This document shows, piece after piece, positions 60,460 through 64,000 of a stretch of DNA of 64,000 bases (within the stretch, counting starts at the first letter, position 1; the number at the start of each line of letters is the position of its first letter). The notes beneath the pieces were generated by a model, which was not told the DNA's origin, made no database searches, and saw only the letters and a list, made by a program, of their open reading frames with translations. The stretch is from Chloroflexota bacterium (GTDB taxonomy: Bacteria > Chloroflexota > Dormibacteria > Dormibacterales > Dormibacteraceae), in the NCBI GenBank assembly GCA_005882135.1, contig VBDR01000043.1, forward strand, positions 1 to 64,000, given 5' to 3'. The translations under genes and the position numbers were made by a program.

Positions 60460-61647
60460 ATGAGCACCGCCGTCCGCTTTGCTGAGCGCATGTCGCGGCT
60501 GGGCACCGAGGGAGCCTTTGAGGTTCTCGCCAAAGCACGCAAGCTCGAGGCCGAAGGCAAGCACATCGTGCACCTGGAAATCGGCGAGCCCGATTTCGCG
60601 ACGCCAGACAACATCGTCGAGGCTGCGATCGGGGCGATGCAGAACGGCTACACGCACTACACACCAGCGAGCGGGATCTTCGAGGCGCGCGAGGCGGTGG
60701 CCGGCTTCGTCAGCCGGATGCTGGGCGCCCAGGTCGATCCCGCGGAGGTGGTGCTCGTCCCGGGGTCGAAGAACGTGCTCCTGTTCACGCTGCTCGCGTG
60801 CATCGAACCGGGCGACGAGGTGATCCTCCCCGACCCCGGCTACCCGGCCTACGCGTCGCAGGTCAACTTCATCGGCGCGGTGCCGAAGCCGGTGACCTTG
60901 CGCGAGGAGAGCGGATTCCGCATGGACCTCGACGAGCTCGCGTCATTGATCACGCCGAAGACTCGCATGCTCATCATCAACACTCCGCAGAACCCCACCG
61001 GCGGCGTGCTCACGGAAGAGGACGTCGATTTCGTCTGTGACCTGGCGCACAAGCACGACCTGCTCGTGGTTTCGGACGAGATCTACAGCCAGCTGGTTTA
61101 CGGCTTTCACCACGTCTCGCCGCTTTCGCGGCCCGGCATGCGGGAGCGCACCGTTTTGATGGATGGCCTCTCCAAGTCCTATGCGATGACCGGATGGAGG
61201 CTTGGTTATGCGGTCGCGCCGCGCGAGCTCGCGGCCAAGCTGGACACCCTGATGATCAACTCGTCTTCGTGCGCCGCCGCCTTCACGCAGATCGCCGCGA
61301 TCGAGGCCCTCGGCTCGCCGGAATCCGAGCACGCCGTGCGCCGGATGGTGAAGGTCTTCGAGCATCGTCGCGACCTGGTCGTCGACGGCATCAACGAGAT
61401 CCCGGGCATGCGCTGCGCGCGGCCGCAGGGGGCCTTCTACGCGTTTCCAAATATCGCGGCGACGGGTTTCGACGAGCATGACCTCGCGGCGCGACTGCTG
61501 ACCGAGGCCGGCGTCGCGGTCTTGCCGGGCACGGCATTCGGCGACGCAGGCAAGGGTTTCATCCGCCTCGCCTATACACAGTCGGAGGATGAGCTGAAGC
61601 TGGGCCTGCGCCGGATCAAGGAGTTCGTCGCCGCCCACCGGCACTAG
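60460..61647 (+). CDS. Class I/II PLP-dependent aminotransferase
   Basis: A 395-residue fold-type I aminotransferase of the aspartate/alanine group. Motifs: HLEIGEPDFATPDNI, YTPASGIFEARE, INTPQNPTGGVLTEED, SDEIYSQLVY, and the PLP-binding Lys in GLSKSYAMTGWRLGYAV; a conserved Arg near the end is in KGFIRLAYTQSEDEL. Likely substrate an amino acid such as aspartate or alanine; specificity cannot be read with confidence. Confidence 0.92.
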   Translation: MSTAVRFAERMSRLGTEGAFEVLAKARKLEAEGKHIVHLEIGEPDFATPDNIVEAAIGAMQNGYTHYTPASGIFEAREAVAGFVSRMLGAQVDPAEVVLVPGSKNVLLFTLLACIEPGDEVILPDPGYPAYASQVNFIGAVPKPVTLREESGFRMDLDELASLITPKTRMLIINTPQNPTGGVLTEEDVDFVCDLAHKHDLLVVSDEIYSQLVYGFHHVSPLSRPGMRERTVLMDGLSKSYAMTGWRLGYAVAPRELAAKLDTLMINSSSCAAAFTQIAAIEALGSPESEHAVRRMVKVFEHRRDLVVDGINEIPGMRCARPQGAFYAFPNIAATGFDEHDLAARLLTEAGVAVLPGTAFGDAGKGFIRLAYTQSEDELKLGLRRIKEFVAAHRH

Positions 61648-61669: not shown

Positions 61670-63577
61670 ATGCAAGACGGGCTTGTCCGTCTGACCGAAC
61701 CGCTGGTCAGGGAGGGCGGAAGTCTCCGTCCCGCCTCCTGGGAAGAGGCGCTGACAATGGCGGCCGCCGGTTTCGAGGCGGCGCGGCGGAACGGGCCGCA
61801 AGCGTTCGGCATGTTCAGCTGCTCGAAGACCACCAACGAGATGAACTTCATGGCCCAGAAGTTCACGCGCGCGGTGATGCACAGCAACAACGTCGACAGC
61901 TGCAACCGAACTTGACACGCCCCGAGCGTCGCCGGTCTGGCGACAGTGTTCGGAGCCGGAGGCGGGACCTCCTCCTACCGCGAGGCTGAGGAGACAAACC
62001 TGATCATCCTGTGGGGCTCGAACGCGCGCGAGACCCATCCGATCTTCTTCCATCACGTCCTACGCGGCGTCCGCAATGGCGCCCGCCTGGTCGCGGTCGA
62101 CCCGCGCCGCACCAGCTCCGCGGAATGGGCCGATGTGTGGCTCGGCATCGACGTGGGCAGCGACATCGCCCTGGCCAACGCCATGGCACGCGAGATCATC
62201 CACGCCGGTCTCGCCGACAAGGAGTTCATCGCGCGCGCCACCACCGGTTACGAGGAATTCGAGCGCTGCGTCGAGGCCTACACGCTCGAGCGCGCAGAGG
62301 CTGAGACCGGGGTGCCGGCGGCGGCGATCAGCGAGGTGGCCCTCGACTACGCGCGAGCGGAGCGAGGCATGATCTGCTGGACCCTGGGCATCACGGAGCA
62401 TCACAACGCCGTCGACAACGTGCTTGCGCTCATCAACCTGGCTCTGCTCACGGGCAAGGTGGGCCGGTACGGCTGCGGCCTGAACCCGCTGCGCGGCCAG
62501 AACAACGTCCAGGGTGGTGGCGACATGGGCGCCATCCCGGCCCGGCTGCCTGGTTTCCAGGACCTCGAGGATCCGGCGATCCACGAAAAGTTCGCGCGCG
62601 CGTGGAGCGGCGCCGACTTCCCGAGCAAGAAAGGCTGGCACCTGAGCGAGATGTTCGAGGCGATGGACCGTGGTGACCTGCGCTCGGTCTACATCGTCGG
62701 CGAGAATCCGGCACGCAGCGAGGCTGACCAGACGCGCGCGGTGCGCTTGCTCAGCGGCCTCGACCACCTCGTCGTCCAGGACATCTTTCTCACCCAGACC
62801 GCGGAGCTGGCGCACGTCGTCCTGCCCGCGGCCGCAGGTTGGGCTGAATCCGAGGGCACGGTGACCAACAGCGAACGCCGCGTGCAGAGGGTTCGCCGCG
62901 CCCTTGAACCGCCGCCTGGCGCGCGGGATGACATCGACATCATCGGCGAACTGGCACAGCGGCTGGGCTGCGGTTGGGGCCGGCCGACCGCGGAGCAGGT
63001 CTGGGATGAATGCCGGAGGCTCTCGCCGATGCACGCGGGCATGGCGTACCGGCGGCTCGATGAGCTCGGCGGGCTCCAGTGGCCTTGCCCCGACGAGTCC
63101 CATCCGGGCACGCAGTTCCTCCACGCGAGATTGTGGAAGGAGCCGGCCGAGGGCGCACCAGCGCCTTTCCACGCGGTCGAGCACGACCCTCCTGTGGATC
63201 GCCTCACAGAAGAGTTTCCGATCCGCCTGACGACCGGGCGCAGGCTCGACTCCTTCAACACCGGCGTGCAGTCCGGCGGGTACACCTCTCCGCTGCGCAA
63301 GGGCGAGGCCCTGCTCATCTCGCCCGAGGACGGCAAGAGGATCGACGTCGAGGACGGCGAGGCCGTGCGCGCCAGCTCGCGACGGGGCTCGGTCGAGGTG
63401 AGGGTGCGGTACGAGCGGTCCCTGCGACCGGGGCTCGCCTTCATGACATTGCACTTTCCAGACCAGGTCTCGACCAACGTGCTGACCATCGACGCGACCG
63501 ATCCCAAGTCCGGGACGGCCGAGTTCAAGGCGAGCGCGATCCGCATCGACAAGCTCACCAGGGTGCCCGCGACCTAG
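61670..63577 (+). CDS. fdhA: Selenocysteine-containing formate dehydrogenase alpha subunit
   Basis: One reading frame interrupted only by TGA at 61913. Before it comes NNVDSCNRT, after it HAPSVAGLATVFGAGGG, which is precisely the formate dehydrogenase active-site sequence in which Cys or selenocysteine precedes HAP. Read through, the protein is 635 aa with Sec at 82 and contains GSNARETHPIFFHHVLRG, VDPRRTSSAEWADVWLGI, GLNPLRGQNNVQGGGDMG, YIVGENPARSEAD, VLPAAAGWAESEGTVTNSERRVQ and a C-terminal molydopterin dinucleotide domain (LTTGRRLDSFNTG). The usual N-terminal [4Fe-4S] domain is absent: the protein begins at the residues that normally follow it. An NuoE-like gene follows directly. Confidence 0.9.
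61913..61944 (+). promoter_or_regulatory. UGA selenocysteine codon and SECIS hairpin
   Basis: The TGA codon is followed by 12 nt, then GTCGCC-GGTCT-GGCGAC: a perfect 6-bp stem (61928-61933 with 61939-61944) and a GGTCT loop (61934-61938). From memory, E. coli fdhF has the same loop (GGUCU) at the same distance from its UGA, where SelB binds the bulge/loop G and U. Wobble positions of the codons here fit the stem. Confidence 0.85.
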
Positions 63578-64000
63578 TTGGACATCAGAACCACCGGAGA
63601 TCCAGCCACCGAGGAGGAGATCGCCGCGATCGATGGCCTTCTCGGTGAGCCCGAGTCGCTGTGGCAGGGAGGCGAGCGGCATCCGGCCGACGATCACGTC
63701 GCCCACGGCGGCCGCGCCGTCCGGTCGCGCCGCCACCTCCTGCTGCCGGTGCTGCACGCGATCCAGGACCGCACCGGATGGGTGAGCCGCGGCGGGCTCG
63801 AGTACGCGTGCAGGCGGCTGTCGATCCCCCCGGCCGAGGCCTACGGCGTGGTCAGCTTCTACGCGCGATTCGCTCTGCAGCCGAGGGGCGCGCTCGCGCT
63901 TCATGTCTGCGACGACATCGCGTGCAAGTGCGCGGGCGCGGACGAGCTTTGCGCGGCGCTGGAAAAGGATTTCGGAGCGCCGGGCGGGGCGTGGCATCGC
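63578..64000 (+). CDS. NuoE/FdhC-like [2Fe-2S] subunit, truncated by the window end
   Basis: Starts at TTG immediately after the fdhA stop and runs off the window after 141 codons. LLLPVLHAIQDRTGWVSRGGLEYACRRLSIPPAEAYGVVSFYARF matches the helical N-terminal domain of NuoE/FdsG/HydA-gamma subunits (quoted motif in part: PAEAYGVVSFYARF). HVCDDIACKCAG gives the first two Cys of the [2Fe-2S] site; the second pair lies beyond the end. It suggests an NAD-linked formate dehydrogenase, with a NuoF-like subunit expected next. Confidence 0.85.
   Translation, partial: MDIRTTGDPATEEEIAAIDGLLGEPESLWQGGERHPADDHVAHGGRAVRSRRHLLLPVLHAIQDRTGWVSRGGLEYACRRLSIPPAEAYGVVSFYARFALQPRGALALHVCDDIACKCAGADELCAALEKDFGAPGGAWHR

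Follow-up and report, generated by a model that had tools for sequence, protein, structure and literature searches.

A selenocysteine formate dehydrogenase with its alpha subunit encoded in two genes and a cofactor-proximal cluster probably supplied in trans

How could a formate dehydrogenase (FDH) gene that is interrupted by a stop codon, and whose product carries no recognised iron-sulfur domain, give rise to a working enzyme? This question is raised by fdhA-C (61670..63577, + strand), located near the end of the window, which is the whole 64,000-nucleotide stretch of DNA analysed here. The gene forms a single reading frame whose sole internal stop is the TGA at 61913-61915, exactly as an earlier sequence-only reading had described it. 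Its predicted product is the catalytic, bis-MGD-binding part of an FDH alpha subunit, 635 aa in length, in which the UGA (61913..61915, + strand; codon 82, inside NRT-U-HAPSVAG) would be read as selenocysteine (Sec82). Specifically, the Pfam domains PF00384 and PF01568 are found and PF04879 is absent, and the TIGR01591 (Fdh-alpha) model is matched at 637.4 bits over model positions 53-672 only. This score falls just under the curated whole-protein cut-off of 666.25 bits because the Molybdop_Fe4S4 domain is missing from the ORF. The gene thus corresponds to the rear two thirds of a catalytic subunit and, along with the [4Fe-4S] domain, is short of the essential lysine next to the metal site. 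In the AlphaFold model of FdhA-C (pLDDT 77.9), the fold matches that of E. coli FDH-H with a TM-score of 0.87 by query. An aminotransferase-like gene on the same strand (window 60460-61647) ends 22 bases before fdhA-C.

The interrupting codon is conserved in relatives. A search of 101 genomes yielded stretches around 38 loci, one per genome, which together with the own locus make 39; short partial matches in G024 and G012 and second fragments in G002, G007 and G035 were left out. Two of the 39 end before the codon, and all 37 loci that hold it (the own locus and 36 relatives) have TGA at codon 82, as do 80 of the 80 named loci, the best 80 of 585 relatives. The Sec/Cys column, which the sequence-only reading had singled out for alignment with homologues, is invariant in 37 aligned FdhA-C sequences: position 82 (Sec, given as C) is followed directly by His83, and both residues are conserved throughout together with Arg275 in PLRGQNN. 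We take the roles of these three positions to be those of formate dehydrogenases, with Sec82 as the presumed metal ligand.

The perfect stem GTCGCC-GGTCT-GGCGAC noticed 12 nt behind the TGA is indeed present, starting at 61928 (61928..61944, + strand), and we annotate it as a bacterial SECIS apical hairpin from its pairing over 74 distinct sequences and from codon constraint. Its loop starts 21 nt after the first base of the UGA, as in fdhF of E. coli K-12, so the proposed likeness in loop and spacing holds. The 64 kb window contains 48 perfect hairpins with a 6-bp stem and a 5-nt loop (+ strand reading), and no other among them has the loop GGTCT; the pattern TGA-N18-GGTCT is present a single time when both strands of the window are searched. 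Folding of the 46-nt stretch alone, a check suggested beforehand, gave -19.0 kcal/mol, a modest gain over shuffled sequences (z -1.67), 10 of 200 of which fold equally well. Among the Rfam models none matches over its gathering score, SECIS_3 remaining sub-threshold at 18.6 bits (E 0.83; gathering score 63). The Rfam SECIS models and the folding of a single sequence were weak as support, and neither was relied on. Because the fold only moderately beats shuffles and the Rfam match is sub-threshold, the case for a SECIS element directly behind the UGA rests on conservation and not on energy.

In the best 80 of 585 relatives the loop reads GGTCT in 78 and GGGCT in 2, the latter being the Rokubacteria loci L106 and L125, and two stem pairs are broken in one locus of the 80 (L152). 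Over the 74 distinct sequences 99.5% of apical-stem cells are paired, and two pairs are changed on both sides (C-G to G-C in one, C-G to U-A in four). Additionally, at the six SECIS core codons 99% of 36 sequences use the most frequent codon, compared with 68% for 370 other conserved codons, and none of 20000 amino-acid-matched draws reaches the mean codon conservation of the 13-codon SECIS stretch. It is only by this resampling and by the six core codons that the stretch is singled out, as 15-codon windows that begin at codons 43-53 and 63-64 have a higher mean codon conservation, 0.87-0.88 vs 0.81. The pair-count controls are modest because the hairpin hardly varies. Out of 500 shuffles, the observed value is reached by 62 for per cent paired, 2 for pairs changed on both sides, 128 for doubly changed cells, 323 for further pair types and 12 for the covariation score. 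Alignments slid out of register pair far fewer cells (27-53% vs 87%), whereas a slide of +2 gives a higher covariation score than the true register (0.108 vs 0.096) and a slide of +3 gives more doubly changed cells (27 vs 7) and pair types (9 vs 8). In the lower helix only 75% of cells are paired.

The own genome, a fragmented, MAG-like assembly of 2.71 Mb in 91 contigs that is 85% complete, encodes most of the selenocysteine machinery. Profile searches find selA (506 bits) adjoining selB (350 bits) on contig C6, fdhD at 175 bits, and one tRNA-Sec over the gathering score (72.5 bits) with the anticodon TCA. Both selB and tRNA-Sec, the absence of which had been named in advance as speaking against selenocysteine, are thus in the genome. 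The expectation that the organism has selA, selB, selC and selD stands for the first three, and selD has no match over the cut-off in this 85%-complete assembly. Because 23 of 31 genomes searched have selD over the cut-off, its absence here is taken as assembly incompleteness. An in-frame TGA occurs in 18 of the 23 over-cut-off SelD matches of relatives (L202-L205, L207 and others), in which SelD is probably a selenoprotein itself.

If UGA 82 were instead a true stop, the two halves of the frame would be separate small proteins. The fold energy, unremarkable when taken alone, and the lack of a selD match over the cut-off in the own assembly fit such a reading; it is nevertheless hardly credible, given a UGA that is unchanged and a SECIS hairpin that is nearly so in relatives, the synonymous constraint, the presence of selA, selB and tRNA-Sec, and a second Sec FDH (FdnG type) in the same genome with UGA at the same site. 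Taken together, the TIGR01591 match, the conservation of UGA and hairpin, and the occurrence of selA, selB, tRNA-Sec and fdhD support the original assignment as a selenocysteine formate dehydrogenase. Judging from sequence, this soil-type bacterium apparently decodes one stop codon as selenocysteine in an enzyme that oxidises formate.

The missing iron-sulfur domain is accounted for by the neighbouring genes. The alpha subunit is encoded in two genes, and the gene order is fdhA-C(Sec), a nuoE-nuoF fusion and fdhA-N. The fusion gene (63578..64000, + strand, extending across the window end to contig position 65380) encodes 600 aa from a TTG that is taken as the start and lies immediately after the fdhA-C stop. 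Its product contains the 2Fe-2S_thioredx, Complex1_51K (FMN), SLBB and NADH_4Fe-4S domains (Pfam, over gathering), and scores under the NCBIfam cut-offs for NuoE and NuoF. As in FdsABG-type enzymes, a NuoE/NuoF-like diaphorase with FMN and 4Fe-4S domains is therefore encoded alongside the catalytic part. fdhA-N lies outside the window, two genes downstream of fdhA-C (contig 65373-66242; L019 5374-6243), and overlaps the end of nuoE-nuoF by 8 bases. FdhA-N (289 residues) comprises a 2Fe-2S domain, a 4Fe-4S dicluster and, at residues 233-285, Molybdop_Fe4S4 (Pfam), the very domain (PF04879) that the domain search did not find as an N-terminal [4Fe-4S] domain on the FdhA-C chain. Of the 672 positions of TIGR01591, FdhA-N covers 1-50 (53.9 bits) and FdhA-C 53-672; on R. 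capsulatus FdsA (6tg9_A, 958 aa), the two match 25-303 and 308-931, respectively. Because the pieces tile FdsA, we infer that the whole alpha subunit is present, with the cut falling in the linker that follows the proximal cluster domain, the gap between the pieces on a normal alpha subunit amounting to a few residues. The front piece of the alpha subunit comes last in the operon, and, being encoded downstream, it cannot be joined to the rear piece by frameshifting.

Sixteen cysteines of FdhA-N (C46/57/60/74, C154/157/160/164, C198/201/204/208 and C239/242/246/274) do not vary in either of two alignments, one of 18 and one of 39 sequences, and neither does K276. Assigned from ferredoxin and FDH patterns, these cysteines would presumably provide one [2Fe-2S] site, two [4Fe-4S] sites and a C-terminal, cofactor-proximal [4Fe-4S] domain that also carries the conserved Lys. 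In particular, LCVKG of FdhA-N aligns with LCLKG of E. coli FdhF, which makes K276 the likely counterpart of FdhF Lys44. In E. coli FDH-H, only Arg is reported to be tolerated in place of Lys44, with 7.1% activity left, and two other variants lose more than 90% of the cluster (PMC12176258). For FdhA-N the structural model, built from the sequence of the relative L095, is weak, with a mean pLDDT of 68.6, and reveals no more than kinship to the front parts of NuoG-like proteins and of FDHs.

The order C-EF-N is complete in 30 of the 39 loci, including L090 and L092, where C is cut at the contig start; the other nine run out of contig (N cut in 5, EF only in 2, contig ending before either in 2), and none is contrary. 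Of the 80 named loci (best 80 of 585 relatives), 60 have a complete, separate N and none has a fused alpha subunit. The complete N begins at most 3.5 kb from the end of C in 58 of the 60, and L128 and L150 have a break inside N; in the remaining named loci N is cut (3), the sequence ends at or in EF (11), or neither EF nor N lies in the examined stretch (6). A whole-genome search found FdhA-N in 8 of 8 genomes, namely L104, L117, L121 and L153 as well as L124, L129, L131 and L160, the last four being drawn from the six loci with neither EF nor N and L123 and L144 lying outside this search. Each FdhA-N of these eight adjoins a NuoEF and ends soon after the conserved block, with one tail of about 70 residues. 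The best 80 relatives bear eleven phylum labels (Chloroflexi, Dormibacterota, Actinobacteria, Acidobacteria, Planctomycetota, Rokubacteria, Eremiobacterota, Gemmatimonadetes, Bacillota, Myxococcales and a Spirochaetaceae), although all are metagenome bins, whose labels can be wrong, except for the isolate Aquisphaera insulae JC669 (L121). Single relatives show breaks: a frame change inside FdhA-N in L058 and inside NuoEF in L059, both counted among the 30 complete loci, and an in-frame TAA in FdhA-C of L068, which may be either assembly errors or decay.

It could be argued from such breaks, and from the fragmented, MAG-like state of the 91-contig assembly, that an ordinary one-piece alpha subunit has merely been broken here through assembly error or decay. 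Dozens of separate genomes, the isolate A. insulae JC669 among them, share the boundary and the gene order and have unbroken frames, which makes this exceedingly improbable, and the pieces are permuted, with C before N, which is not the product of a simple break.

A different objection concerns partnership rather than integrity. FdhA-N also resembles HoxU, the front parts of NuoG and the N-terminal part of [FeFe] hydrogenases, and in some Chloroflexi loci nuoEF and fdhA-N lie away from fdhA-C, or not within 5.5 kb of it (L100, L104, L107, L114, L115, L117, L153; L124, L129, L131), which shows that adjacency of C and EF-N is not obligatory. FdhA-C might then pair with some other iron-sulfur protein, for instance a ferredoxin or the NuoG subunit of complex I, while FdhA-N might belong to a different enzyme. 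We regard this as quite unlikely, since FdhA-N ends with the FDH domain that FdhA-C is without, the next match to the FdhA-N profile in the own genome reaches 75 bits against 535 bits for FdhA-N, and both genes are kept in all eight genomes searched whole. The genes that stand between C and EF in some Chloroflexi look, by eye, unrelated to the complex.

The split family is set apart from fused homologues. Among the matches listed from 400 genomes of the phylum there are two score groups: the upper one holds 53 matches (52 genomes) above 990 bits, 51 of them with one TGA and two beginning just behind the Sec codon, and the remainder consists of cut copies in G007 and G396 at 775-795 bits and of whole-length matches at or below 642.5. 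All 18 homologues picked from the lower group are fused, with the CxxCxxxC domain in the same frame, and both members of the upper group examined likewise (L227, L228) are split. An unrooted tree built from both kinds, 31 split and 18 fused sequences, places all split ones beyond a single branch that has 100/100 support and a length of 0.83; the split arrangement forms one clade. Because the tree is unrooted, it does not tell fission from ancestral separateness. Phyla are mixed inside the split clade, which suggests horizontal transfer; no member of the clade was found in plasmid records, where all 1498 matching records are below 60% identity. A bolder and rather unlikely view sees in the split a long-standing, stable alternative design of the complex I-like electron-input module, in which a NuoG-like iron-sulfur subunit would end in the cofactor-proximal cluster and a cluster-free molybdo-seleno subunit would be plugged on. 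The family would then have preserved or re-created the modular state from which one-chain FdsA and NuoG were fused.

We propose, with a probability of roughly 0.86, that the locus encodes a cytoplasmic, NAD-linked, molybdenum (or tungsten) FDH with a two-piece alpha subunit whose active site is completed in trans. In this enzyme SelA, SelB and tRNA-Sec would insert Sec82 at the UGA under the SECIS hairpin, FdhA-C would bind bis-MGD with Sec82 as metal ligand, and FdhA-N would dock on FdhA-C, contributing the cluster and Lys in trans. Electrons would pass from formate via Mo-Se to the proximal cluster, then along the remaining clusters of FdhA-N to FMN in the NuoE-NuoF fusion, and finally to NAD+. 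The direction, formate oxidation, may be questioned. Many FDHs are reversible. The best sequence match of FdhA-C among solved structures is FdhF of the hydrogen-dependent CO2 reductase (7qv7_S), so the enzyme might mainly reduce CO2, or might act on another small substrate. This seems unlikely, as the NuoEF partner points to NAD(H), and the Sec position, like His83 and the Arg275 of PLRGQNN, does not vary among the 37 sequences, as in formate dehydrogenases.

In FdsA of R. capsulatus FdsABG, the iron-sulfur part, the proximal cluster and the catalytic part share one chain with what we take to be a Cys metal ligand, whereas here the alpha subunit is in two genes, the order is permuted, NuoE and NuoF are fused, and Sec stands in place of Cys. 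A further difference is that the NuoG-type His-Cys cluster motif is not visible by eye in FdhA-N. Both systems combine NuoE-, NuoF- and NuoG-like parts with a catalytic domain (PDB 6tg9). E. coli FDH-H (FdhF) shares UGA-encoded Sec, the SECIS loop and spacing, and the catalytic fold, but has its own [4Fe-4S] domain and Lys44 in the same chain and is not known to have a NuoEF partner. In the FDHs compared, FdhF and the 18 fused relatives, the metal-adjacent [4Fe-4S] domain is built into the catalytic chain, whereas in the split family the cluster domain and Lys seem to be supplied by a second polypeptide. If so, the family would show a natural way of uncoupling cofactor chemistry and electron wiring, which bears on engineered CO2 reduction, and would let one test ideas on the assembly history of complex I subunits. 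Searches that demand a whole alpha subunit free of in-frame UGA would probably miss or mis-call it.

Sec FDHs have been reported in Sulfobacillus, next to nuoEFG-like genes (PMC4378227), and in a planctomycete and Plesiocystis, next to nuoEF (PMC4807772); the passages compared mention neither a missing N-terminal domain nor a split. These published clusters probably belong to the same family. A Sec FDH beside nuoEF or nuoEFG is thus already published, and the novelty lies in the split and the proposed supply of the proximal cluster in trans; in literature outside subscription papers and preprints we found no description of a split or truncated FDH or of FDH gene fission. HylCBA-FdhA, described in PMC5736913 as the four-subunit FDH of Clostridium acidurici and Desulfotomaculum, likewise has a separate NuoG-like iron-sulfur subunit beside a Sec catalytic subunit, but there, by the same account, the catalytic subunit retains its own 4Fe-4S domain, on the other side of which the cut lies here. 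By match positions, L218, L220 and L222 resemble this HylA/FdhA-type separation. The second Sec FDH of the own genome (L022 7388-10471, contig C75; TIGR01553 at 1291 bits), which is of the FdnG type, is unsplit, with an in-frame TGA at the same site, its own [4Fe-4S] domain and, by eye, a twin-arginine-like N-terminus.
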